From assembly GCA_021157815.1 (NCBI GenBank), contig JAGGVT010000041.1, forward strand, positions 1-36,396: a stretch of DNA of 36,396 nucleotides, given 5' to 3'. Position 1 is the first letter of the stretch, and every line of letters starts with the position of its first letter. Position numbers and translations under genes: made by a program. The stretch comes from a bacterium (lineage in GTDB: Bacteria; JAJVIF01; JAGGVT01). Below are positions 61 through 36,392 of the stretch, piece by piece. A model generated the notes under the pieces. The model worked only from the letters and a program-made list of their open reading frames with translations. It was not told the DNA's origin and ran no database searches.

Positions 61-750
61 CTAGAATATGAAGCATGTTCCGATTAACATATCACCATCG
101 ACTATTCCGCCTTGTACTGACCACTGTTCATTTGCGAAATATCGAATACCCAACGAAAAGGCATCGTTGTCATTCGGTCCAAAAGTGCTTACATACTCGA
201 CGATTGCAATCATGTTGTCAGCGAGATTGAAATCCAGTCCAGCCCAGTAGTTGAATTCATCGTTAACCCAGTCAGCATCAACCCAGCTAAGGCCGCCGTG
301 AACACCAACCGCGCGGTCGATTGAAATATCATCCGACTGGAAATATCTTGATGCGACAAGATAGAACTGCGTCAAGGTATTTCCACCCAGATCGTTATAG
401 TCTACACCGAAAGCTACACCGGGCGTATCTTCATTTTCAGTTATGAAGGCATATTTGGCGTTTATACCGAAACCGTCATCGGCATCTGAATGGAAGAAAC
501 CGCTGGCACCCATCTCGAAATTTTCCGAAAGACCGCTAGTAAGCGTGAAAGCCCAGATTGTGTCATTGGCGCCCGCATCGCTGAAATCAAGGTAATTGAA
601 TCCCAACCATGCGCTTTCAGGAGTTGTAATATCCGCTGTCGGGCATATTAACAACCCTGTAGGGCCAGAAAAAGACGGCTCGGCGGATGCAAGAGCGCCA
701 AGCGCAAATACGAAGGCGAGAGCTAAAACCACGATAATGAATCGTTTCAA
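61..750 (-). CDS. YjbH-like outer-membrane beta-barrel protein
   Basis: A 229-residue secreted protein. Residues 1-23 form a signal peptide (MKRF, a long hydrophobic run, then ASA before EPSF). The mature part opens with GPTGLLICPTADITTPES, which resembles the start of YjbH/YmcA-type outer-membrane proteins, and continues with alternating aromatic strands ending in GTCFIF with a terminal Phe, as in many barrel proteins assembled by BAM. It is much shorter than full YjbH (about 700 residues), so it may be a small single-barrel relative. The start is TTG at 750, chosen because AGGAGG (757-762, minus strand) lies 7 nt upstream. A promoter at 806-834 and a terminator at 6-35 make it a monocistronic unit. 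The exact function is unknown; a porin-like or exopolysaccharide-linked barrel is an inference. Confidence 0.6.
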   Translation of the reverse strand: MKRFIIVVLALAFVFALGALASAEPSFSGPTGLLICPTADITTPESAWLGFNYLDFSDAGANDTIWAFTLTSGLSENFEMGASGFFHSDADDGFGINAKYAFITENEDTPGVAFGVDYNDLGGNTLTQFYLVASRYFQSDDISIDRAVGVHGGLSWVDADWVNDEFNYWAGLDFNLADNMIAIVEYVSTFGPNDNDAFSLGIRYFANEQWSVQGGIVDGDMLIGTCFIF

Positions 751-805
751 TTTAAGCCTCCTGAATTTGATTTACAGCGATTAAATCGCTATTAAACAAG
801 AAAAA

Positions 806-834
806 ATCCTATCACAACAAAGGATGCAAGTCAA
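806..834 (-). promoter_or_regulatory. Sigma70-type promoter for the YjbH-like gene
   Basis: On the minus strand, TTGACT (829-834) and TAGGAT (806-811) are separated by 17 bp, matching the -35/-10 consensus at 5/6 and 4/6. A perfect 7-bp inverted repeat (AGCGATT/AATCGCT, 776-790) lies in the leader between the promoter and the ribosome binding site. Confidence 0.5.
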
Positions 835-1024
835 TGTAATTCAAACTCGTGTAGTTGGTTAGTTTTGTTTAGCATGGATAATCTCGATGTTTATGTTAAG
901 CCTTTACGTCTGATGGTGATGGGTGGTACAATCTTAAATAGGCTGGCGCCAATCATATAAACGATATTTTTTATGGATAAGCCTATATATAAGTAAATCT
1001 CTCAGACCATATATCATCATTGAC

Positions 1025-1360
1025 TTGGCAAATAGATTTATTAATGTTTACTTGTCTTATATGATCCATCATGAAGATGGTTGGTATTTTGCAGAATGCC
1101 CGGAATTAGAAATAATGGACCAGGGCAGAACACAAAGAGAAGCGATTGAGAATTTGCAAAAAATGGTCATGGCAACCTTACTTGAGGCAGTTGAAACCAG
1201 GAACCTTGATGCAATGCTATTGGAATTAGGATTCAGAAAAACCGCTATTCATCAGGGAAAGCAATTTAAGTCAACAATATCATCATATGAAGATATGCAT
1301 CCCTTGAAGATGCAAGTCCCATTACCTCATGAACCTGAAAAGGCGACAGTCTCACCATAA
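1025..1360 (+). CDS. HicB-like antitoxin domain protein, orphan
   Basis: A 111-residue protein. Residues 6-60 (VYLSYMIHHEDGWYFAECPE, then a QGRTQREAIENLQ helix) match the HicB partial RNase-H fold: an edge strand, an acidic GWYFAECPEL strand, then a helix with EAIENL. HicB family proteins neutralise the HicA mRNA interferase and often repress their own operon. No C-terminal HTH or arc-type DNA-binding domain is recognisable; the tail after residue 75 is polar and unassigned. The TTG start at 1025 has no good ribosome binding site, and the frame stays open upstream, so the start is uncertain. ATG at 1061 would remove the first strand of the fold. No intact hicA is next to it: only 79 bases separate it from the convergent lipoprotein gene. 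Confidence 0.6.
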   Translation: MANRFINVYLSYMIHHEDGWYFAECPELEIMDQGRTQREAIENLQKMVMATLLEAVETRNLDAMLLELGFRKTAIHQGKQFKSTISSYEDMHPLKMQVPLPHEPEKATVSP

Positions 1361-1393
1361 ATGGCAAAAGGAAAGAAATCATCTAAGGAATAA
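1361..1393 (+). other. Ten-codon ORF, possible hicA remnant
   Basis: ATG immediately follows the HicB-like stop codon and encodes MAKGKKSSKE before TAA. Reading through that stop in the same frame gives ILKLLN and a second stop, so SSKE+ILKLL faintly recalls the opening helix of HicA (xGKELIKLL). The space to the next gene is too short for a whole HicA. It may equally be chance. Confidence 0.2.
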
Positions 1394-1439
1394 ATCCTGA
1401 AATTGCTCAATTAGCTTGAGACAATTTTACATTAACAAC

Positions 1440-4400
1440 CTAACCGACGCGTGAGAAAATCTCACCGTTGGCGCTGTATGTGTTGTCCTCGTATATCACG
1501 ATAATCTCGCAGTTTGTTTCGCTTGTTATAATCTCCGGCGATGTTCTAACCGCGCTTCCGGGACTTGGATCATTTACGATTTTGTCACCGCCGAAAGTAA
1601 CTCCGCCATCGCGTGAATAATCAGCATAGATGTCGGGGAAATCAGCTGTCGCGCGGTCATCGCTCCAGACAACATAGATATACCCCAGTGAATCAGTCGT
1701 GATGCCTGCTTCGTACGGGCGGTTGTTGGTCGTATCGTTGACGGATGAATTAGCAATAGCGAAACTGTCAATTGTAAAATTGCCTTTGATGATTTTAATC
1801 GCGCCAACCGATGAATCGCCCTGTGCGAATGCGACATATACCGCCTGGCCATCGGGGTCGGAATCGGTTATCGCGATATCGATTGAATTGATGCTCTCAT
1901 CATACGAATTGGAAATCAGTTTTGCTCCCGCGCTGAAATCATCCCCGCGGTTTGTGCTTCGAGCGATAAACACGTTGCTTCCGGATTGCCCATCCTGCGC
2001 GGCGCAGACATAGATGTTTCCGTTAACGGGCGACACAATCAGGTCGGCGACAGAGAACGAACGGTTATAAACCTCGCTGCTGTTTGCAACCACGACCAGC
2101 GAACCTGAAGGGAAAGTCTCGCCTGTGTCCGTGCTTTTCAGCAGTTCTACACTGTTGGATGCAGCAGTTGAGTCGTTGTCTTCGATGAACAGGAGGTAGA
2201 TTCTGGTCGGGTCGATTGGATCCTGCGCAAGGCTTATGCAGGAGATGTAATCAGAGCCGTTATAAATCTCAGACCTGTCGAACACGATGCCGCCGTTGAT
2301 GCTTCTTTCAATGTAGATCGTGTTTGTGCTCTGGTCAAACCATGCGACAACGATGATAAGGGCATCATCAGTTGCGATACTGAAACCGCCGGGCAGAACG
2401 GATGTCGGAATGAAATTGGATAGAGGCCAGCTGCTGCCGTTGTCGGCACTTCTCGCAAAGCCGATTCCCGGCTGAGAATCCGTGATTCTGATTCCCTTGT
2501 ATCCGGCGTATATGTTTCCATCGCCGCCATCGGCAAGTTTCATACCGCCTCCACCCATTTTCGTGATGTCAAGGTTGTTGAAATTTGTCTGCGATGCTAT
2601 CACGCGATGGCCTTGCGAGAAGTTCAATCCGGTTCCGTAGCATGGGGCGCAAATAATCTGGATATTGAAATCCTCGATATAATCATTTGAAGCGGCGCAA
2701 TCATCGGCGATTTCGCATGTCATGCCGACATAAAGCGGATCACCGTATCCGCCAACGCAGTTTGAATTGTCGAAAACGCGTGTGATTGTATTACTGGCGC
2801 CTGTCTGATCCTCTAAATCGGGATTGTCGAAATAGAAAGAATACGTTGTGATATTTGCATTGGAACTTGTGAATTCAGATGCCCTGATTGAAATCTCGGC
2901 GCCGTTAATTACTGACAACGTGCTGCCTGTCATTTGCGTGAAATTGGTTCCGTCGAGTGAATACTCAAAATATCCCTCACCTATGGGCCCGCATTCAGCG
3001 GGACATTCGACATGTATCTTATATTGCTTTGTCCAGTCATTGGACATCTGGCAGTCATCCTCGACTGCAAAATCGAGCAGCAGAAGGTATGGCTCCGCGC
3101 CACTCGCGGGGCAGTCGGGATGAGTTATCGTTCTGGTAACAGAAGATGTGCTGCGTGACTGGTCTTCAATTCGAGGATCATTGAAATCGAAAGTGTATTT
3201 CTCGATACTGCTGTTTGTGCTGGAGAATCCGCTGGCTTTGAAAATCATTTCATCGTTGTTTTGAATAGTGACTCCGAGCATCGGGAATGGTTCAAAAGGC
3301 GCGCCGTTTTGGGAATATGTCAGCGAGCCGGGCATAATAGGCCCGCATCCTTCACCACAATAAATGAATATCGTGAAAACGTCCTGCCAGTCGGCGGACG
3401 CATCGCAGTCGTCGGTGATTGTGATTGTCAGATGCAGCTCCAGCGTATCATTTGAGCCGCCGCAGTTTGGATTGTCGTATGTTCTTATGACTGTGCTGTC
3501 GGTAGAGGACTGGTCATCAAAATCCGGATTGTCAAAATCAAAATCGATATTTGTAACCTCTCCGCCCGGTATCGTTGCCAGAGCTTTTATTTTCATCTCA
3601 CTGCCATTTATAAAATGAAGCACATTGCCGTCAAGGCTGTTGAGGAATCCCATGCCGCCTGTTTCGCCGTACTGCATACGCACAGTGATAGGGCCGCATG
3701 TCGAACCGCCGGCTGATGCCACATCAATGGGGAAAACCTGATATGTCGCGAATTCATAGACTTTTGTGAATTCAAGCCCTTCACCCGGAATAAAATCAAC
3801 AAGTTCGCCAAGGGAACCGTAGTTCATCCCTTGATGCCGGCTGTCGATGACTTTAACAAGACCCCAGTATGAACCTGCCTCCGCGAGAAGGTCGTTGTTG
3901 ATTTCGACCAGATAGATTAGAGGGTCATTATCGATGCCTGTTCCGCCTGTGGGAGTGTCTGATGTGTCGTTCTTAAATGTAACGCCGGGAACTTCGGCTG
4001 ACACATTTGTTATTTCACTTGATGCTTTGATAGCGTCAAGGTCATTCAGGAATGAGTCGATTTTAGTTGTTGAATGCTGCCAGTCCCAGACTTTAACCCG
4101 CACAGTTGCTGACGATGACGCCTGCGCGTCGTTCAGGTTATTAGCGGGGATATCAACCTCGATTTTCCACGGCTCCTTGATATTGAACTCGGGCAGCCAG
4201 TATTGGGGAGTTAATCTGTCCATCCAGTTGAAAGTAGATTGCCCGTAACCGCCGAACATAAGCAGCGTCGCGTTGATTGTCTGTCCATAGGGCAGATGCA
4301 GAATCATGTCATCGTAATATGATTCACCCTGATTGAGAACGTTATGCCCTGACGCGTTTGCGAGATCGGCGAATCCGGTATCATAGGTCGGATCAACGTT

Positions 4401-5039
4401 TCCGACTGACGGGTCCTCTGCGAGAATGATATAGGGATATGCGTTTGTCGCGATATCATCAGTCGGATCAAGAAGCAAATCCTCGATATTCGTGTATCCA
4501 TCAGCGTTTGTAATAGTTACCGGGTTAAGCACAATGCCGGTTTTTGCAAATTCCACTTCTCCCTCAATTATATATATAAGTTTGACATCGAAGATTCTCA
4601 AATCATCCCTGTTTTTCGCGGATGGCGGCTCAAGGGCATTCGCCCGCTTGTATGGATGAGTCGTTTTGAATCTTAGAACGATATCGTTTTGTTGATTGAC
4701 GGAAACGCTGTCAATCCTCAGGCAGTCTTTGCATGGTACGGATGTGAAATAATAGGAGAGCGCGGTGAGGAAGGAATCTCCTTCTTTGAGCGCGGTTCTG
4801 ATTGGGACAAGTTCCGCGGAAAAGTTCTGTGTGTCAACGCGCAGATTGAACGCTCCCATAAGACCGCGTCCAACCGATATGTCGGACTCATCTCCTTCGC
4901 TTATTAAAAGCGGGAAAGAATCATCCGCCGCGTTTGGCTGAACCGGGATGCCGGGTTCAATCGGGCTTTTGGATGAACATCCCCAAAGAATTGCGAACAG
5001 GAATAAAGGCAGTATCCATAATGCTCTTTTCTGTAACAT
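1440..5039 (-). CDS. Large lipoprotein: family N-terminal module, three Cys-containing PKD-like repeats, Asp-box propeller
   Basis: About 1199 residues. A hydrophobic leader ends in LWGC (Cys21), predicting lipidation and membrane anchoring. Residues 47-442 form a module shared with three other genes in this window: an ELVPIR strand, a C-x2-C pair (103, 106), a THPYK motif, a DLRIFDV strand, NADGYT, then GLVKVIDS and EFATYQVFPIDV. Next come three tandem repeats of 115-118 residues, each starting CGPI (448, 565, 683) and carrying an F-D/N-DP-x-x-x-DQS core, a conserved Cys before a loop and a DDC motif. The last 400 residues hold sialidase-type Asp boxes (SADNGSSW, SINGGIVF, STDTGETF, STNRGDDF, SRDGGVTF), implying a beta-propeller. 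Start: ATG 5039 with AGGGTG just upstream; GTG 5048 is possible. Probably a surface or periplasmic binding or adhesion protein; no catalytic residues are recognised. Confidence 0.75.
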   Translation of the reverse strand: MLQKRALWILPLFLFAILWGCSSKSPIEPGIPVQPNAADDSFPLLISEGDESDISVGRGLMGAFNLRVDTQNFSAELVPIRTALKEGDSFLTALSYYFTSVPCKDCLRIDSVSVNQQNDIVLRFKTTHPYKRANALEPPSAKNRDDLRIFDVKLIYIIEGEVEFAKTGIVLNPVTITNADGYTNIEDLLLDPTDDIATNAYPYIILAEDPSVGNVDPTYDTGFADLANASGHNVLNQGESYYDDMILHLPYGQTINATLLMFGGYGQSTFNWMDRLTPQYWLPEFNIKEPWKIEVDIPANNLNDAQASSSATVRVKVWDWQHSTTKIDSFLNDLDAIKASSEITNVSAEVPGVTFKNDTSDTPTGGTGIDNDPLIYLVEINNDLLAEAGSYWGLVKVIDSRHQGMNYGSLGELVDFIPGEGLEFTKVYEFATYQVFPIDVASAGGSTCGPITVRMQYGETGGMGFLNSLDGNVLHFINGSEMKIKALATIPGGEVTNIDFDFDNPDFDDQSSTDSTVIRTYDNPNCGGSNDTLELHLTITITDDCDASADWQDVFTIFIYCGEGCGPIMPGSLTYSQNGAPFEPFPMLGVTIQNNDEMIFKASGFSSTNSSIEKYTFDFNDPRIEDQSRSTSSVTRTITHPDCPASGAEPYLLLLDFAVEDDCQMSNDWTKQYKIHVECPAECGPIGEGYFEYSLDGTNFTQMTGSTLSVINGAEISIRASEFTSSNANITTYSFYFDNPDLEDQTGASNTITRVFDNSNCVGGYGDPLYVGMTCEIADDCAASNDYIEDFNIQIICAPCYGTGLNFSQGHRVIASQTNFNNLDITKMGGGGMKLADGGDGNIYAGYKGIRITDSQPGIGFARSADNGSSWPLSNFIPTSVLPGGFSIATDDALIIVVAWFDQSTNTIYIERSINGGIVFDRSEIYNGSDYISCISLAQDPIDPTRIYLLFIEDNDSTAASNSVELLKSTDTGETFPSGSLVVVANSSEVYNRSFSVADLIVSPVNGNIYVCAAQDGQSGSNVFIARSTNRGDDFSAGAKLISNSYDESINSIDIAITDSDPDGQAVYVAFAQGDSSVGAIKIIKGNFTIDSFAIANSSVNDTTNNRPYEAGITTDSLGYIYVVWSDDRATADFPDIYADYSRDGGVTFGGDKIVNDPSPGSAVRTSPEIITSETNCEIIVIYEDNTYSANGEIFSRVG

Positions 5040-5312
5040 AACAATCACCCTGTATAAACTGCATATTTAAAGAATAAATCAATAATATTTCCATATAAGG
5101 ATTTAGATTTTATCATTTTTGCAAATGAAAGTCGCTTGATTGGTGTGGAAAAGGAGTGAATTGGTTGTGGGGTTATCGTACGACTTTACGATATGTAAGC
5201 TGAAGCGGGCGGCTGCATTGTTCTATAAATATTGATGTTGTGTTATTTATGATATACGACTTGATATGGGCTGACACCACGGCTCATGCTGTTGTTTTGC
5301 AACGGTCTCAGT

Positions 5313-8300
5313 TTAGAATAATTTTCCGAACGTATAGTAAATATCGGACTCACCGCTGAACGGAGTTCCCATATCGCTGGATGCGTTTCTCTCATCGCCC
5401 CACACCAGCATAATGCCTGAATTAGATGAGATTAGAATAACAGGCGGGCCCTGTGTTACATTCTCAGGAGATGAGTCGCTGTTAATCTTCACGTTCTCTG
5501 CAAACGTCGGCCTGTCGGGCATCAGCGCAAATGAGAAATAGACATCGCCGCCGAAACCATCCCTGAAATCCCGCCATGCGATAAAGGTTCGCCCCATCAT
5601 GTCAGTGCCGATCGATGGATTATCCTGAAGAATCTGGTTGCCCGGACTTTCAACAGAATCATTCACTTTACGATTAGGTATGAAAGTCAATCCGGTCAAT
5701 GAATAAGAATAAAAGATGTCAAAATCGTTTATGGTATCTCCGTCCCGGCTGTCCTGCCAGGCGACATAAATCGCACTGTTCATTCCGACAGCGACCGATG
5801 GATGAGTGGAAATTCCGTCATTAGCGGCTGAATCGACAATTCTCACAGGCGGATAGAACTGCGATCCTGAACGCTGATAACACACCATGATGTCTGAATT
5901 GTCACTAATCGAGTTATTTTTTCCTTCGAATGCAATGACGACGGTACCGAACTGCGCGGTTGCCGCGGATGGGAATTTGCCATCATCGGCAATAGTCAGA
6001 GGAGAATCAAACGTGTTGCCGCCATCAGTGCTTCGCGCCAGCCGGAGCGGTACATTGCCACCGGACATCGTACCGGTGAAGAAGTAATTTATTGTTCCTT
6101 CAATATCAACTGCCAACGTTGGTCCGCCATAATCGTTCTCACCCGTACCCACTTCTACAGGAGCGCCAAATACACCCTGATGATCTGTAATGTGATAGTA
6201 ATATGAGTTGCCGTCCGCGTAAGCAAGATGAAGATTGCCCATAAAATCAGCAATCAATGTGGGTCGCAGGTCGGCGGGAGATGCTGAAATCAAATTCGAG
6301 TTAGCGGTGAGAGGCGGATTGAAAGAACGTCCGCCATCGATACTCACGCTGTATTTAATTGCAGGACCGCCGGACACATTCCCCTCATCCACCCAAGCGA
6401 CCACGACAGCTCCTGTTGTAAGCAGTACGGCGCTTTTTTGTCCGCCACCCATAAATGAGTGGCTGTTATATGAATCTTCCTCATTGAGCATGTAATTCTC
6501 GCAAAAAGCGACCTCGCCTGGAAACCCGCTTAGCGGTTCTGAGACTAATTTAAGGCGAGTTACACCCTCAAGCGGAGGACTGGAATCATCTTTCACTCGC
6601 AACATTACATTATGCGATCCTTGGCTGAACCTGCGCTGAATGACGCTACCTGTCGCTTCCACAGTGAAATCCGGGCTTTGGGGGTCATAGTCGAAATCCC
6701 ATTCATAGGCTACAACTTCGCCGTCACTATCGTATGAATCCTCACCATCAAGAGTAATCAAAGTGCATTCACTGAACGGGGATGGCGGATCAACAGTGAA
6801 AACAGCATGAGGCGGCGAATTAGGCTGCACCAGAATCTCTATTCCGAATATGCCCTCGAGAGGAGGATCACCATTATCCAAAACCCGCAAAACGGCAAAG
6901 TAATTCTCGGGATGGGACGGGTTTGGATTGTCATACCTGTGCGGTGGCGGTGTAGCGCCTGTATCATCAGGTACAAACTCCCCTTCGAATTCAAAATCCC
7001 ATTCGTAGGTTGTTATTTCGCCATCAGGATCGAACGAATTAGTCGCGTCAAAAGTAATCGACTCTCCGGAAGTTATTTCAGGAAGACGCGGGTCAGTTTT
7101 AAAAGACGCCTCAGGCGGTATGTTTGGCGGATATGCCGCTACTTCAACTTGAAAAATCTGGTAGTTTGTGAAGTCATTGATATTGATTATTCCAAGCTCG
7201 CGCGTTGTTCCAACAGGCCCGTTGCCGCCGCCCACCAGCGAATCGCGAATCGCCGCAATGCCGAAATATGTTCCACCCTCCGGGTCAAGTTCGTTATCGA
7301 GTGTGAAAGTGTAAACGTACGGATCTGTCCATACACCTGTACCGATAACACTCTCCGGCTCAACAAGAGGATTTTCCAAAAGTTCCGGTAAATAAATTTC
7401 AACGCCTGTCACATCGGAAGCAGATGAAATGTCAGTCAGGCTGCCGTTAAAATAATCAATCGCGCCACTGCCCGCCAGACCGGCCTGCCAGTCATAAACG
7501 GTAACGCTTAATGTCGCATGGGTATCAGACCCTCCATGCGCAAGAGTGTTGTTTGAAATATTAACAAACGCTTTCCATGCCTCTTTACGATGGAACTCAG
7601 GGAGGAAATAACGTGGATTAGTCCTGCAGCCGACATCCGGAAAAGGAATGTCGAAATTGGATGAATGCCCGTAACAGGCATCGAAAGCCATTACTAATTC
7701 AAGATTGCCGCCGGGCTCAATGTTAAAAATATAATTGACATCATCTGTTCTACCACCCTGGGGAAATACATTCTGCCCCTGAGGAGCTGTAAGAGTAATC
7801 CAACCGTTTACGGGAGCAATATCCTCACGAAAATTACCCTGTCTCGCGTCTTCAAAGAACATCTTGTAAGCGTGGAGATTCGCGCTTGTTGAGTAAATAT
7901 TGTCATCCATATATTCATCAAAAAAAGTTGTGTAACCATCGGCATTTACAACCAGGTCCGGCCTGCACCGAATTGTCTCGTTGGGATTGCCGTCACCATT
8001 CACATCTGATTTCAGTTGGGAGTAAATCCTGCTGCCTTCTGAGAAGATAATCCCGTGTACATCAAACAGGTGGAGGTCTATTCGCTCACCGGGCTGCGGG
8101 TCTGACAGGTTGCCCGGAATAGGAATAGGGTGATGAAGCCTGAACGTCACCTCGAGAAATTCATCATTTTCAGTCAATCCAACACCCACGACCTGCAGGC
8201 AATCAGCACAAAGGGAATTGAGAAATCCTGTAATGTCCGACTGGTATGTGTCACCAAGGGCTGATGCGTTTCTTATTGGAACCAGTTCCGCGGTTAATTC

Positions 8301-8522
8301 ATCGCGGTTTAGTTCAAGGGAGTACATCAGAAAAACCCCGACCTCGGAACTGTCGCCGGTATTCGCACTTGGGTATGATTGAATATCGTCAGGCAGGTTG
8401 ATTGACGATGATGGCATTTCATCCTGTTCGCCGGGAAGCATTGGATTTTTTCCACCGGAAGAACAACCGGCGGTAATTAATGCCAGAATAAAAGCCATTG
8501 TGATTATACGAGTGATAGTCAT
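5313..8522 (-). CDS. Lipoprotein: family N-terminal module, two PKD domains, Asp-box propeller
   Basis: 1069 residues, paralogous to the 1440-5039 gene. The lipobox is ITAGC (Cys20). The shared module spans about 55-462 with ELVPIR (79-84), CADC (105-108), HHPIPIP, DLHLFDV, VNADGYT, VYDWQ, GTYFGIAAIRDS and FTNYQIFQVEV. Two PKD domains follow (about 468-565 and 570-662), each with FDPDGEITTYEWDF-like or YDSDGEVVAYEWDF cores. Residues 670-1069 carry Asp-box motifs (SIDGGRSF, STDGGNTF) and repeated VAWQDSRDGD, IAWRDFRDG and LVWGDERNA strands, typical of a sialidase-fold propeller without an evident active site. Start ATG 8522 has AGAGGAG 6 nt upstream. A promoter-like pair, TTGACT (8581-8586) and TAAATT (8559-8564) with a 16-bp spacer, lies upstream on this strand, and a 6-bp hairpin (8543-8558) sits in the leader. 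Role inferred: extracellular binding or adhesion. Confidence 0.78.
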   Translation of the reverse strand: MTITRIITMAFILALITAGCSSGGKNPMLPGEQDEMPSSSINLPDDIQSYPSANTGDSSEVGVFLMYSLELNRDELTAELVPIRNASALGDTYQSDITGFLNSLCADCLQVVGVGLTENDEFLEVTFRLHHPIPIPGNLSDPQPGERIDLHLFDVHGIIFSEGSRIYSQLKSDVNGDGNPNETIRCRPDLVVNADGYTTFFDEYMDDNIYSTSANLHAYKMFFEDARQGNFREDIAPVNGWITLTAPQGQNVFPQGGRTDDVNYIFNIEPGGNLELVMAFDACYGHSSNFDIPFPDVGCRTNPRYFLPEFHRKEAWKAFVNISNNTLAHGGSDTHATLSVTVYDWQAGLAGSGAIDYFNGSLTDISSASDVTGVEIYLPELLENPLVEPESVIGTGVWTDPYVYTFTLDNELDPEGGTYFGIAAIRDSLVGGGNGPVGTTRELGIININDFTNYQIFQVEVAAYPPNIPPEASFKTDPRLPEITSGESITFDATNSFDPDGEITTYEWDFEFEGEFVPDDTGATPPPHRYDNPNPSHPENYFAVLRVLDNGDPPLEGIFGIEILVQPNSPPHAVFTVDPPSPFSECTLITLDGEDSYDSDGEVVAYEWDFDYDPQSPDFTVEATGSVIQRRFSQGSHNVMLRVKDDSSPPLEGVTRLKLVSEPLSGFPGEVAFCENYMLNEEDSYNSHSFMGGGQKSAVLLTTGAVVVAWVDEGNVSGGPAIKYSVSIDGGRSFNPPLTANSNLISASPADLRPTLIADFMGNLHLAYADGNSYYYHITDHQGVFGAPVEVGTGENDYGGPTLAVDIEGTINYFFTGTMSGGNVPLRLARSTDGGNTFDSPLTIADDGKFPSAATAQFGTVVIAFEGKNNSISDNSDIMVCYQRSGSQFYPPVRIVDSAANDGISTHPSVAVGMNSAIYVAWQDSRDGDTINDFDIFYSYSLTGLTFIPNRKVNDSVESPGNQILQDNPSIGTDMMGRTFIAWRDFRDGFGGDVYFSFALMPDRPTFAENVKINSDSSPENVTQGPPVILISSNSGIMLVWGDERNASSDMGTPFSGESDIYYTFGKLF

Positions 8523-11198: not shown

Positions 11199-12662
11199 AT
11201 GGCGGAGTATAAAAAAGATTTTTGGAAAAACATACTAGAAAAACTATCCGGCAAGCTTCCGTCCGGGATTTTTGAAAATGTAATCCTGCAGGCAAAACCG
11301 GGAAATCCCGAAAATGGCAAATTGAAAATTTACCTTCCGTATGCGTACATGACCAGGAGAATTACGCAATCCGATAGAACAATTATTGAGAATGTGATAT
11401 CTGAAATGCTCAATACTCCCATTAAGGTTGAGTATTCGATAACCTCTGATAAAAGCAGTGTCCTTACAACGAAGCTGGCAATTTTAGCGCAGCAGACCAT
11501 AAGCAGCCGAAAAAAGCTTGTCAGGAAGAAGGGGAAAAACGGCGGTTCAAAATCAGGCTCCGGCGTTGGCGCTGGGAACGGGCATGGTAAAATCTCATCC
11601 GGTTCCGGTGATAATTACCCACGGCTCAAGTCATCATATACATTCGACAATTATATTGTTGGAGATTCCAATCGCCTGGTTCATGCCGCATCCATGGCAG
11701 TATCAGAATTGCCCGGCGGGAAATATAATCCTCTTTTTATCTACAGCCTGGTTGGCCTTGGAAAGACGCATCTTCTGCACGCAATAGCCCATAAAATTCT
11801 GGAGCTTCATCCTGAGAAAAAAATCCAGCTCACACATGCGGAGACATATACAACAGAACTAATTGAAGCCATCAACGACCCAGCAAAGTCGAGACGTTTT
11901 AGAAGCAAATTCAGGCATTGCGATGTTCTTCTGATTGATGACATTCATTTCCTTATCGGCAAGGATGCAACAAAGGAAGCGTTTTTCCATACGTTTAACG
12001 ATCTTTATGAAATGGGCAAGCAGATTGTTCTAACATGCGATCGTCATCCCCGGGAGCTTAGAACGCTTGAAAGCCGCCTTATAAGCCGTTTCCATCTTGG
12101 CTTGATAGTTGACATACAACGTCCGTCATACGAAACACGCCTTGCCATACTTACAAAAAAAGCATCACAAATCAGGCTGAATCTGCCAGCCGAGATACTC
12201 TCACTCTTTGCGTTATCCGTCCAGGGTTCCATAAGGTCGCTTGAGGGATGTCTCCAAGCGGTTCAACACAATGAGACGACTCTCAACAGAAAAATCACTC
12301 TTGATGAGGCGAAACAGATAGCGGTCGATTATTCCTATGATCGTGACCCGCAAACAAATCCGATAACGATAAAGGATATCATGGACCTTATCTGCCACCA
12401 TTATAGAATAACTCCGGAGGATTTAACCGGCAAGTCGCGCGAAAGCCGCCTGACGCATCCAAGGCATATTGGAATGTACCTGTCTCGAAAACACACATCC
12501 CTGACACTGAAAGATATAGCCAGGGCGTTCAAACGAAAAGATCATGCCACCGTATATCACGGAGCGAATAAAATAGATAACGGGCTGAATCTGGACGCCG
12601 TTCTCGCGCGTGAAGTTAAGTATATCGAGGATATTCTTCTTGGCAGAGCTCAGATGAAATAA
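11199..12662 (+). CDS. dnaA: Chromosomal replication initiator DnaA
   Basis: 487 residues. Domain I (1-90; FWKNILEKLSGKLPSGIFEN) and a Lys/Gly/Ser-rich linker precede the AAA+ domain. That domain has Walker A (YSLVGLGKTHLLHA, about 182-195), Walker B VLLIDDIHFL (from 243), sensor 1 TCDRHP, the ESRLISRF arginine-finger box and sensor 2 SIRSLEGCL. Domain IV has the DnaA signature HPRHIGMYLSRKHTSLTLKDIARAFKRKDHATVYHG for binding DnaA boxes. Odd: the first glycine of Walker A (normally YGGxGLGKT) is Ser, followed by Leu. ATG 11199 is chosen because GGAG lies 6 nt upstream; the in-frame ATG at 11187 has none. A DnaA-box cluster lies directly downstream. The neighbours are clpX and ddl, not dnaN, recF or gyrB. 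Confidence 0.96.
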   Translation: MAEYKKDFWKNILEKLSGKLPSGIFENVILQAKPGNPENGKLKIYLPYAYMTRRITQSDRTIIENVISEMLNTPIKVEYSITSDKSSVLTTKLAILAQQTISSRKKLVRKKGKNGGSKSGSGVGAGNGHGKISSGSGDNYPRLKSSYTFDNYIVGDSNRLVHAASMAVSELPGGKYNPLFIYSLVGLGKTHLLHAIAHKILELHPEKKIQLTHAETYTTELIEAINDPAKSRRFRSKFRHCDVLLIDDIHFLIGKDATKEAFFHTFNDLYEMGKQIVLTCDRHPRELRTLESRLISRFHLGLIVDIQRPSYETRLAILTKKASQIRLNLPAEILSLFALSVQGSIRSLEGCLQAVQHNETTLNRKITLDEAKQIAVDYSYDRDPQTNPITIKDIMDLICHHYRITPEDLTGKSRESRLTHPRHIGMYLSRKHTSLTLKDIARAFKRKDHATVYHGANKIDNGLNLDAVLAREVKYIEDILLGRAQMK

Positions 12663-12692
12663 TTTGGTTTGGGAGGACCAGGCGTTTTTTTT

Positions 12693-12717
12693 GCAGTCAG
12701 GATGCCCGCAGCACAAA
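12693..12717. repeat. Half copy of the GGATGCCCGCACCAC repeat family
   Basis: CAGGATGCCCGCAGCACAAA matches the right arm of the inverted repeats at 26018-26090 and 17969-18048. The left arm is absent here. Confidence 0.5.
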
Positions 12718-12741
12718 TTCGTACTGCCTAAAACGACTTGG

Positions 12742-12758
12742 GGGGCTATCGCCCCTTT
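12742..12758 (+). terminator. Weak terminator-like hairpin after dnaA
   Basis: GGGGC-TATC-GCCCC followed by only three T residues, 80 bases past the dnaA stop. The stem is GC-rich but the T tract is poor, so function is doubtful. Confidence 0.3.
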
Positions 12759-12820
12759 ACCAGCAATGATACAGAATCTCCCGGCTTTGAGGGATTATTA
12801 AAATATTGGGTTTTCTGTAT

Positions 12821-13058
12821 TGTGAATACAATGTGAATTAAGATTGATAAAGTGTGAATATATAAGGATTTATCCACAATGTAAAAATGCTTCTCAAAAT
12901 TATTCACAGACTTTTCACGTTAAATAACACAGGATTCACACGTTATTGAAATATCGAAATATCGCCTGACTCTTCTTTTTATGCTGGATTCCATACGTTA
13001 TTCACTTATTCACACCCCTTATTATTATAATTATTATCTTTTCTTATATATACAGTGT
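12821..13058. other. oriC: Candidate chromosomal replication origin (oriC)
   Basis: The gene-free, AT-rich stretch after dnaA holds three perfect TTATNCACA DnaA boxes on the plus strand: TTATCCACA 12870-12878, TTATTCACA 12900-12908 and TTATTCACA 13006-13014. Near matches are at 12998-13006 (TTATTCACT, abutting the third) and in reverse orientation at 12821-12829, 12832-12840 and 12853-12861 (TGTGAATAC, TGTGAATTA, TGTGAATAT). The last perfect box is followed at once by CCCC (13015-13018) and then TTA triplets (13019-13036, one TAA among five TTA). Its complement reads 3'-AAT repeated, the pattern of a DnaA-trio next to a GC clamp in the B. subtilis basal unwinding system. An AT-only stretch follows (to 13058). 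Box density plus adjacency to dnaA makes this the likely origin; function is inferred. Confidence 0.85.
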
Positions 13059-13108
13059 CTTTTTAACAACCATCCTTTGAAGAAATATCTTTGATAAATA
13101 AAAAATGG

Positions 13109-13129
13109 ATTCCGGGTCAAGCCCGGAAT
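13109..13129. repeat. Short inverted repeat of the GGATTCCGGG/CCCGGAATGAC family
   Basis: Arms ATTCCGGG and CCCGGAAT around a TCAAG loop, inside the context GGATT...AATGACAA. The same block recurs at 36367-36387. It sits inside a looser inverted repeat (CCTTTGAAGAAA at 13074-13085, TTTTTTCAAAGG at 13169-13180) on the ddl side of the origin. Confidence 0.6.
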
Positions 13130-13270
13130 GACAATAGTTTGCTTTTACTAAGAAAGCTTTAAAACATGTTTTTTCAAAGGCAAATTATTGATTTTTTGGC
13201 ACTAAAGCTGCATATTTTATCTATTCTGTTATGGTTTTAATGTTTGGAGAAATGAATAAAGGATAAGGCA

Positions 13271-14221
13271 ATGAAAATAATGACACTTATGGGGGGCCCG
13301 TCTCCTGAAAGAGAAATATCTATAACAAGTGGAAAAGCAGTAAGTGACGGGTTAAGGAGGCTTGGGCATGAGGTTCTGGAAGAGGATTTTTCAATAGAGA
13401 CATATGAAAATATTAGAAATCTCAAACCGGATTTGGTGTTTATAGTAATGCATGGAAGTCCCGGCGAGGATGGATCAGTTCAAGGCATGCTTGAAATACT
13501 CGGAGTGCCTTATACTGGTTCAGGAGTACTGGCATCATCGTTGTCAATGGATAAGGCAGCGTTAAAACGATTTCTTTCAGATTCGGATATCACAATGCCA
13601 TCCTGGTTTTGGGTGCCGGAATCAGCGGAAATAGATATTGCGATAAATCGCCTTGCCGCACAGGGGATGCTTTTTCCTGTGGTGGTGAAACCGACATCAG
13701 CCGGAAGCACCATTGGGATATCGATTGTAAAAGATGAGGATGAGCTTGAGGAAGCAATCCAAAACGCAAGGAAGATAAATCCAGATGCCATCGTGGAGCA
13801 ATTTATAAGCGGGAAGGAAGTTACAGTATCGATAGTTGGAAATGATAATCCGATAATTTTGCCGACACAGGAGATAATCGCGGAGGGTGGATTTTATGAT
13901 TATGATGCAAAGTACACTCCCGGCAAAAGCGAGCACGTTTTCCCACCGGATATTGCTCCGGCATCCATTTATAAGGCTGAGGAGATGGCTGAACGAGCTT
14001 ATATCGAGACCGGCTGCCTTGGCTTTGCAAGAGCGGATTTTATTATTGGTAACAACGGAGAACCATATTTCCTTGAGATGAACACAATTCCAGGAATGAC
14101 TGAAGTAAGTCTCGTTCCGGATTCCGCGCGCGAGCATGGATGGAGTTTCGATGAACTTCTCAAACGCATTGCTGAATACGCGCTTGAACATTTTTCATCG
14201 TCTGTGCGAAAGCAACATTAA
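13271..14221 (+). CDS. ddl: D-alanine--D-alanine ligase
   Basis: A 316-residue ATP-grasp enzyme that joins two D-alanines for peptidoglycan precursors in the cytoplasm. The start MKIMTLMGGPSPEREISITSG is the Ddl signature. HGSPGEDGSVQGMLE and PYTGSGVLASSLSMDK follow, then the ATP-binding strand FPVVVKPTSAGSTIGIS, the omega loop FYDYDAKYTPG and the metal site FARADFIIGNNGEPYFLEMNTIPGMT. The Tyr in the omega loop is typical of D-Ala-D-Ala rather than D-Ala-D-lactate ligases. The start has AAGGA about 9 nt upstream. It lies just past the candidate origin. Its TAA stop overlaps the stop of the convergent HTH gene in the sequence TTAA, leaving no room for a terminator between them. Confidence 0.95.
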   Translation: MKIMTLMGGPSPEREISITSGKAVSDGLRRLGHEVLEEDFSIETYENIRNLKPDLVFIVMHGSPGEDGSVQGMLEILGVPYTGSGVLASSLSMDKAALKRFLSDSDITMPSWFWVPESAEIDIAINRLAAQGMLFPVVVKPTSAGSTIGISIVKDEDELEEAIQNARKINPDAIVEQFISGKEVTVSIVGNDNPIILPTQEIIAEGGFYDYDAKYTPGKSEHVFPPDIAPASIYKAEEMAERAYIETGCLGFARADFIIGNNGEPYFLEMNTIPGMTEVSLVPDSAREHGWSFDELLKRIAEYALEHFSSSVRKQH

Positions 14222-15296: not shown

Positions 15297-16490
15297 ATGA
15301 AAAACAGGTTTCACAATCAATCTGGTTTTACCCTGATTGAACTGTTGGTCGTAATCGTAATCATCGGAATCCTTGCCGCGATTGCGCTGCCGAACTTTAT
15401 CAAGGCGCGTAACAAGGCGAGAGAAGCCGAGGTTAAATCGAACATCCACTCTGTCCAGCTGGCGCTGGAGCGCTATGCAACCGACAATGGAGGCGTTTAT
15501 CCGCCGTATCTTGTTGGTGGCGAGCGGGATTCAAACATCCTGTGGTGTTCGATTGACCATTTAGTCAACGGGACTTTCCCGAACGCTGACTGGCCCACAT
15601 TGTCATTTGCCAATTTCCCGCTCGGTATCACTCCTTATTCGATAGTTAAGCCGAAGGATATTAATGGCATTCCGAATGGGCCATACAATGGGTATGATGT
15701 TCTTAATGGCGACGCGCTTCTGTTCTACGGTTATCTTGCGCAGTATCCCAAGAATCCGTTCGCGCGCAAGGACTCCGGTCTCTGGAACGCCAATGCAATT
15801 GGCGGAACTGCAATGACCGGACTATTCCCGTACGGTGGACATCACGGTGACGTAATGTTTGATCTTGGCTTCGGATGGGGCGATGCTCCGCAGTCTGACT
15901 TCGTGCTTTACACGACGGAAAGACTCGAGGAGAACGACCCCGACGTGGTCGCTGATCCCGATCTGGACTCACCGGGTAACTTCTATTATCACCCGATGTT
16001 CTCGGATGGCATTCCGGTTTACTTCCACACCCAGCACCTGATAGAGTCCATTTTAGGCTCTGCAACCGCGCAGGGCATTTATGGTGAGGATGTAATGGGA
16101 TTCTATCTTTACGGTTATGGAGCGCCGGGAGATCGCGACAGTATTGTGGAAGGTGGGCAGGATATCTTTAACAGGATGCCTGCAGGATTTATTACTCAAT
16201 CACCAGAACCACCGTTCCCCGACTCCAGTAGCACTTTTGGTCAAATACCATACCATAACGTTGCTGGTGGAGAGCAGGAGCGAGTGCAGTGTACAGGTTA
16301 CAACTCATCAGAGTATGACCCGTACACAGGCGCGTATCCTGATGGAATCAACCCGAGAGATGCTGAAGAGCTTACATTCAAGAGTGGCTCCGACGGCATT
16401 CAGGACTGGGTGGTCATCGTTGTTGCGGCCGGTTCGGACTGCGCTCCGGATTATGTTCGCGACACGCTGGTCTATGGTGAGGCTAACTAA
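15297..16490 (+). CDS. Type IV pilin / pseudopilin-like protein with long C-terminal region (copy 1)
   Basis: 397 residues. A short positive leader (MKNRFHNQSG) ends in the prepilin peptidase site G10|F11, followed by FTLIELLVVIVIIGILAAIALPNF with the conserved Glu at mature position 5, the class III signal that anchors pilins in the inner membrane before assembly. The helix continues NKAREAEVKSNIHSVQLALERYATDNGGVYP, typical of GspG/PilE-like subunits. The remaining 320 residues (usual total 130-180) are a Gly/Asp/Pro-rich globular part with YLAQYPKNPF, PDLDSPGNFYYHPMFSDG and QDWVVIVVAAGSD motifs also found in the next gene. The start has a perfect AAGGAGGT (15283-15290). No assembly ATPase or prepilin peptidase is nearby, so the machinery must be encoded elsewhere. 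Confidence 0.85.
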   Translation: MKNRFHNQSGFTLIELLVVIVIIGILAAIALPNFIKARNKAREAEVKSNIHSVQLALERYATDNGGVYPPYLVGGERDSNILWCSIDHLVNGTFPNADWPTLSFANFPLGITPYSIVKPKDINGIPNGPYNGYDVLNGDALLFYGYLAQYPKNPFARKDSGLWNANAIGGTAMTGLFPYGGHHGDVMFDLGFGWGDAPQSDFVLYTTERLEENDPDVVADPDLDSPGNFYYHPMFSDGIPVYFHTQHLIESILGSATAQGIYGEDVMGFYLYGYGAPGDRDSIVEGGQDIFNRMPAGFITQSPEPPFPDSSSTFGQIPYHNVAGGEQERVQCTGYNSSEYDPYTGAYPDGINPRDAEELTFKSGSDGIQDWVVIVVAAGSDCAPDYVRDTLVYGEAN

Positions 16491-16825
16491 AGTCTCACTT
16501 CAGGGTTTTAAACTAGTTTATATAGATCGTGAAGAATCTCCCACGTTCGCTGGGGAAGGGCATAAGGGAGTAATGGCAATTTATACAAGACAGGATTCAC
16601 ACAAAATGCCAACTCCTCCGGACTCAAACGAACGGGTTTTTCAAAAGTTCAGTCAGGGAAAATAAATATATAACATTATCCTGAACCGGACAGGCGAATC
16701 GCCAGGGCAAAGAATCTTAATGATCGATCTCTTTCACTAGTATTATTTCTTAACTACTAAAAATGCCTAAAATCCAAACAGGATTTAGGGCCCTCTCCCT
16801 AATAGGGAAGGAGGTGAAAGAAGAT
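16491..16825. other. Spacer and leader between the two pseudopilin genes
   Basis: No gene is supported. Two hairpins precede the second gene: CCTAAAATCC/GGATTTAGG (about 16766-16789) and CCTC-TCCCT-AAT-AGGGA-AG-GAGG (16792-16814). The second pairs the ribosome binding site GGAGG and could lower or regulate translation. Confidence 0.4.
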
Positions 16826-17902
16826 ATGATGACGCACAAGAATGATAGAGGATTCACTCTTATCGAACTTCTGGTCGTTATCGTGATCATCGGAATCCTG
16901 GCCGCGATGGCTCTCCCGAACTTTGTAAAAGCGAGGGAAAAAGCAAAAGAGGCTGAGGTCAAGTCGAATATTCATTCAATCCAGATCGCTCTTGAGCGAT
17001 ATGCCACAGACTCAGGTGGAGTTTATCCGTTAATTCTTTACGGTGGTGATAATTCAGACTCATTCACTACCCGAAAAACGGAGGAATACGATGATTCCGC
17101 TGGAAATACATGGGATGGATTCAGTGAATATAACGGCGATGTGGACGTTCTGATCGAATACGGTTATCTTTCCCAGTATCCGAAGAACCCCTTCCAGAGG
17201 AAGCGAGACATTGACAAGTACGGACGACTGCTTACGCAGCCGGCAGATTACAACTTGCTTATGATGGATCACCGAGTCAATATCTGGTCGCAGCATCCAG
17301 CCCCCACTCATGGGGCTTCGGATAGAGCGCACCAGCTGATTGAACGACAGGTCGGTGGCGAGAAGGGTAATCTGATGTGGGAAATTTCCGAAGGCCAGAG
17401 GCATATGCCGTTCCCCATCGTTGTGGTTCCTGACCCGGACCCTGATGCGCCAGGGAATTATTATCACTATGTCAATCCGACAGCGGCCAATAACTTCGCC
17501 GTTGTGGCGAACTTCCGTGATGATCACCTGTTTTTCCTGATGCCCGGTAACTTCTATTACTACGCGACGTTCAGCGGCATTGGCGGATACAGTCCCCTTG
17601 TAAACGGCGATCCAATGAAGCCGGTTCTTAGTGAGGTAACAGGCTTTAACCTTGCAGGTTACGGCACGACAACCAACCCGGCGAAGGACGTTTACAACAT
17701 CCTTGGTGATTACACCGATCGTTCGCTGTTTACGACCAACAGACCGATTCCGCCAGGAGAGATTGATAGCTACACACTCGAGGACCGCGACAAGATCTAT
17801 GTTGGTCCTGACGGACGAAATGACGGTGTTATTATCGTTGTTCAGTCAGGAGCGGATAGAAAGGCTCCGACGAATCTCGAAATAGACGAGGATCTCAGCT
17901 AG
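16826..17902 (+). CDS. Type IV pilin / pseudopilin-like protein with long C-terminal region (copy 2)
   Basis: 358 residues, paralogous to the preceding gene. The leader MMTHKNDRG is followed by the cleavage site and FTLIELLVVIVIIGILAAMALPNF, then REKAKEAEVKSNIHSIQIALERYATDSGGVYP, nearly identical to copy 1. The body shares YGYLSQYPKNPF, PDPDPDAPGNYYHY and the C-terminal DGVIIVVQSGADRKAP with copy 1, so the two are tandem duplicates that have diverged between these anchors. ATG 16826 is chosen because AGGAGGT (16809-16815) lies 10 nt upstream and the leader then has normal prepilin length; ATG 16829 also fits. A strong terminator follows at 17936-17969. They may be two subunits of one filament or surface structure. 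Confidence 0.85.
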   Translation: MMTHKNDRGFTLIELLVVIVIIGILAAMALPNFVKAREKAKEAEVKSNIHSIQIALERYATDSGGVYPLILYGGDNSDSFTTRKTEEYDDSAGNTWDGFSEYNGDVDVLIEYGYLSQYPKNPFQRKRDIDKYGRLLTQPADYNLLMMDHRVNIWSQHPAPTHGASDRAHQLIERQVGGEKGNLMWEISEGQRHMPFPIVVVPDPDPDAPGNYYHYVNPTAANNFAVVANFRDDHLFFLMPGNFYYYATFSGIGGYSPLVNGDPMKPVLSEVTGFNLAGYGTTTNPAKDVYNILGDYTDRSLFTTNRPIPPGEIDSYTLEDRDKIYVGPDGRNDGVIIVVQSGADRKAPTNLEIDEDLS

Positions 17903-36313: not shown

Positions 36314-36392
36314 TTGTCATTCTGAACTTGATTCAGAATCCATGTTTTTAGCGCTTATCAAGATGGATTCCGGGTCAAGCCCGGAATGACAA
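36314..36392. repeat. 79-bp composite inverted repeat (TTGTCATTC ... GAATGACAA)
   Basis: Outer ends TTGTCATTC and GAATGACAA are exact complements. The left half contains TTCTGAA-CTTGA-TTCAGAA, and the right half is the ATTCCGGG/CCCGGAAT block also found at 13109-13129. It resembles small REP-type or MITE-like intergenic repeats. Confidence 0.7.

Follow-up and report, generated by a model that had tools for sequence, protein, structure and literature searches.

A candidate chromosomal replication origin with a box-clamp-triplet opening unit downstream of dnaA in a draft bacterial genome

The DNA analysed here (the window) is the whole of contig C87, 36,396 bp in length, from a draft genome of 3.2 Mb in 221 contigs that is 91% complete. 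It carries dnaA, which is present in a single full-length copy in the 221-contig draft, is preceded by clpP and clpX, and is followed next by a D-Ala-D-Ala ligase gene (ddl) that starts at 13271. The dnaN gene sits on another contig, C113. Features of dnaA and of the dnaA-ddl spacer are collected in Table 1.

Table 1. Features of the dnaA gene and the adjoining spacer (window coordinates)
Feature	Position	Strand	Details
dnaA	11187..12662	+	491-aa initiator; TIGR00362, 433 bits; PF00308, PF08299 (Pfam Bac_DnaA, Bac_DnaA_C)
dnaA-ddl intergenic spacer	12663..13270	.	608 bp, 33% GC; holds the putative origin
Distal group of reverse boxes	12821..12861	-	three one-mismatch boxes: GTATTCACA (12821), TAATTCACA (12832), ATATTCACA (12853)
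Perfect box	12870..12878	+	TTATCCACA
Perfect box	12900..12908	+	TTATTCACA
Two-mismatch box	12932..12940	+	GGATTCACA; ATTCACA core intact; weak candidate
Proximal box pair	12998..13014	+	TTATTCACT (12998, one mismatch) and TTATTCACA (13006, perfect); 1-bp overlap; tandem TTATTCAC-TTATTCACA
GC clamp	13015..13018	+	CCCC; a 4-bp GC spacer is also found in control loci
DnaA-trio-like triplets	13019..13036	+	TTA TTA TTA TAA TTA TTA; complement of 3'-AAT type, 5/6
Predicted unwinding element	13018..13057	.	least stable 40-mer in the window; nearest-neighbour dG -37.2

Elsewhere in the window, two large minus-strand ORFs (1440-5048 and 5313-8522) encode 1202 and 1069 aa. An NCBIfam search with these ORFs returned no family above the cut-off, and one of the two gave a weak partial match to an M36-type metallopeptidase model. 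A neighbouring gene pair at 15297-17902 carries type IV pilin-like N-terminal methylation motifs. A palindromic dispersed repeat, GGATTCCGGGTCAAGCCCGGAATGACA, occurs at 13107-13133 and 36365-36391 and has 113 copies in the genome at ≤2 mismatches, compared with none for the reversed control. As several contigs end no more than about 100 bp from a copy, the repeat likely breaks the assembly.

Seven boxes with no more than one mismatch to TTATNCACA were found in the spacer between 12821 and 13014, three perfect and four with a single mismatch. The first-pass annotation had reported three perfect and at least four single-mismatch boxes within 200 bp after dnaA, with reverse boxes to the left and forward boxes to the right, and both statements held: three reverse boxes lie on the left and four forward boxes on the right. 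The count was compared with 2000 dinucleotide shuffles of the 608-bp spacer. No shuffle reached three perfect boxes (mean 0.04) or seven boxes in all (mean 1.0, maximum 5), and none reached the six copies of the ATTCACA core that the spacer contains (mean 0.13, maximum 2). Over the whole window the box total was 40, which is not above the chance mean of 33, and the signal is therefore the local cluster.

Exact boxes are scattered through the 221 contigs, with 58 copies of TTATTCACA and 63 of TTATCCACA. The dnaA-ddl spacer is the one place in the 3.2-Mb draft where 200 bp hold three perfect TTATYCACA boxes; the next densest pair of exact TTATTCACA/TTATCCACA boxes is 121 bp apart, on contig C80. 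A broader search with TTATNCACA gave at least 100 places, covering boxes whose fifth base is A or G in full on all but the last contigs. When two ATTCAC cores close together were sought in a separate search, the spacer had the most matches (3/18).

The pair on C80 belongs to a weaker second cluster near 48.1 kb, with four boxes of ≤1 mismatch in about 195 bp and five over the locus as a whole (L151, 48000-48241). This cluster occupies an AT-rich stretch flanked by an HDOD-like and a glycosyltransferase-like gene, both named from ORF reading, and could be a DnaA regulatory site. An origin linked to dnaN was also considered and was unsupported, as no box cluster lay near the C113 dnaN among the box matches listed.

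Immediately to the right of the last perfect box of the dnaA-ddl cluster, the order of elements is that described in the first-pass annotation, namely CCCC followed by TTA-type triplets in five of six units, with the fourth triplet, TAA, interrupting the run. The genome was searched for this arrangement with the pattern TTATNCACN, 0-10 nt, YTAYTAYTA. A box followed by (YTA)3 occurred once, at 13006-13027, and the reversed-pattern control gave none; the C80 cluster was without a box-clamp-triplet unit in this genome-wide search. Among the 40 boxes of the window, the box at 13006 had the top triplet score on a scheme devised for this analysis (10.5 vs 6.0 for the runner-up, which lies in the same spacer). 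As to the features that mark a bacterial oriC, the cluster of DnaA boxes is above chance, an AT-rich unwinding element adjoins the boxes (the least stable 40-mer of the window), and the linkage to dnaA or dnaN is to dnaA, which ends at 12662. Loose NTN triplets arise easily in AT-rich spacers, and the whole pattern might be a product of chance in AT-rich intergenic DNA; given the 0/2000 result with shuffles of this same spacer, and a cluster and a box + (YTA)3 unit that are each unique genome-wide, we count that explanation as refuted.

The published basal unwinding system (BUS) is defined by a DnaA box with up to two mismatches that lies no more than 16 bp from three or more NAN trios; its GC-rich gap averages 4 bp, with a peak at 10-13 bp in the spacing between the better box and the trios (PMC8287927). 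At the present site, a perfect box is followed by a 4-bp gap and then by three consecutive AAT, one ATT and two AAT trios. The gap equals the published average, and the upstream box of the pair lies 12 nt from the first triplet, inside the 10-13 bp peak. Tandem proximal boxes with a short GC-rich gap, which also characterise the BUS, are represented by the 12998/13006 pair and CCCC.

Like the BUS of B. subtilis oriC (incC), with its boxes #6/#7 and DnaA-trios, the site lies downstream of dnaA (PMC6669920, PMC8287927), and it shares with that system proximal tandem boxes, a short GC-rich gap, complementary-strand triplets with a central A, and extra distal boxes. The seven boxes of incC fall into distal and proximal groups, the distal ones working in either orientation (PMC6669920); as far as sequence can tell, the present layout fits this distal/proximal arrangement. 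Unlike the B. subtilis system, the following gene is ddl and not dnaN, the triplets are of AAT and not GAT type with one unit broken, and the boxes are mostly TTATTCACA.

We compared 111 dnaA loci from many phyla. In the 1.5 kb flanking the gene on either side, we looked for two boxes offset by 8 bp, then a GC-rich gap of 2-6 bp and triplets. Matches came from 11 of the 111 loci, and in 10 of these 11, including the present site, the unit was downstream of dnaA and pointed away from it. Among them were Poribacteria L041 and L066, Rubrobacter L053, Siminovitchia L043, and loci L015, L056 and L089. The same criteria, which were fixed after this site and several controls had been inspected, matched 0/8880 shuffled regions; since the shuffles preserve base composition alone, they make a lenient null. 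Stronger evidence than the shuffle comparison comes from the consistency of side and orientation among the loci.

Examples from the matching loci read ttatccacATATCCACA-cccc-CTA CTA CTA TTA CTA in Poribacteria, ttatccacATATCCACA-ggcc-TTA TTA TTA TTA TTA in Rubrobacter and ttatcaacATATCCACA-gccc-CTA CTA CTA TTA CTA in Siminovitchia (Bacillaceae). Poribacteria L041 and L066 and Rubrobacter L048 and L053 resemble the present site in having a box pair, a cccc, gccc or ggcc gap, TTA or CTA triplets, and an equal orientation to dnaA. They differ in that L048, L053 and L066 have more perfect boxes, the triplets of L041 and L053 are uninterrupted, and the paired boxes of L048 abut, whereas those described here overlap by 1 bp. 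That the 1-bp overlap recurs across several phyla hints at a rigid geometry. Altogether, the first-pass comparison of the box, clamp and trio order with the B. subtilis system was borne out in order, spacing and orientation, both against the published BUS (PMC8287927) and against other phyla.

The BUS also involves a DnaA with a single-stranded DNA (ssDNA)-binding ISM residue and an arginine finger. Here the ISM isoleucine I229, the arginine finger R301 and the sensor II residue R350 are conserved; the equivalences of I229 and R301 were assigned from the alignment and from E. coli and B. subtilis numbering. The protein keeps the residues predicted to serve in ssDNA binding and oligomerisation. 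Its Walker A motif is SLVGLGKTH: Ser replaces the usual first Gly, as in 8 of the 111 panel DnaAs, and the Leu at the next position is unique to this DnaA among the 111. In domain IV, DHATV replaces DHTTV. This substitution raised the idea of a changed specificity for DnaA boxes, which was dropped, as Ala occurs there in 6/111 panel DnaAs and the boxes are near consensus.

A switch in strand skew is a correlate of replication origins and stands outside the definition of oriC. To the left of the site, plus-strand third-position GC skew was 0.30, 0.31, 0.11, 0.15, 0.07 and 0.00, and to the right it was mostly positive. No sign change at the site was seen in the 36-kb contig, the plus strand being G-rich on both sides, and the cumulative minimum, which the first-pass annotation had expected at the site, fell at the contig's left end. 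Across 61-24379, third codon positions are G-rich on the plus strand even in minus-strand genes. About 390 kb sampled from other contigs had strand asymmetry that was often consistent per contig, with many local reversals and noise. As the genome has strand asymmetry and third-position skew is positive on both sides, the sign in the left 12.7 kb is not the one expected if a bidirectional origin lay at 12.9 kb. The mismatch could be accounted for by a local inversion, or by acquisition of the left-hand genes (61-8522), which are all minus-strand.

Both the lack of a skew switch at the cluster and the existence of the second, weaker cluster near 48.1 kb on C80 would suit a regulatory DnaA-binding site, acting on dnaA or ddl or in titration or reactivation like datA or DARS, with the chromosome starting elsewhere. 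We consider this unlikely, because the cluster is downstream of dnaA and not upstream, it combines a box-clamp-triplet unit with the weakest duplex of the window, and the C80 site has no such unit.

Conservation of the spacer, a further check suggested in the first pass, was likewise not upheld: three same-class genomes (G001-G003) were without a comparable array at dnaA, their DnaA proteins being 31-39% identical and the G003 contig stopping about 0.5 kb past dnaA. The search for relatives yielded none at genus or family level. In G002, which is nearly closed, GC skew sampled in 20 stretches and the dnaA region of C1 had several weak sign changes; among these stretches, a plus-to-minus change was seen near 1.55 Mb, with dnaA at 1.63 Mb. 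As the array is not kept at dnaA in these relatives, origin placement may be fluid in the class. Together with the wrong skew of the left arm, this allows a very small chance that the site is an old, inactive or recently moved origin whose features persist while initiation occurs elsewhere in this strain; however, the site still has its boxes, clamp and triplets intact, and a stronger cluster was not found in the draft genome. It is also rather improbable, though a little less so, that the site acts as an origin whose flanking asymmetry is not that of a bidirectional one and which class relatives lack, in which case the class may often move its origin or replicate chiefly rightward from the site.

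The dnaA-ddl spacer is therefore most probably the chromosomal oriC, its opening unit being of the canonical box-clamp-trio kind, a reading made from sequence to which we give a probability of roughly 0.87. The first-pass suggestion of a likely oriC is supported by the single adjoining dnaA, by the genome-unique cluster and unit, and by the match to the BUS. Binding, opening and initiation are steps that we infer from this anatomy and from the comparisons, with B. subtilis and other species tested in the literature as the models throughout. DnaA would bind at 12821-12908, to the distal boxes, and at 12998-13014, to the overlapping proximal pair. Starting from this pair, a DnaA filament would load, past CCCC, onto the single strand 3'-AAT-AAT-AAT-ATT-AAT-AAT-5', stretching it and melting the AT-rich segment 13018-13057 for helicase loading. 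The distal boxes would raise the local DnaA concentration, probably via looping.

Paired boxes, GC clamp and triplets make up an opening signal known from Bacillus and many other bacteria, and that picture is unchanged. The site adds a distant example to the view that box-clamp-trio opening is widespread, and it provides a clean oriC candidate for an uncultured, sparsely sampled lineage.
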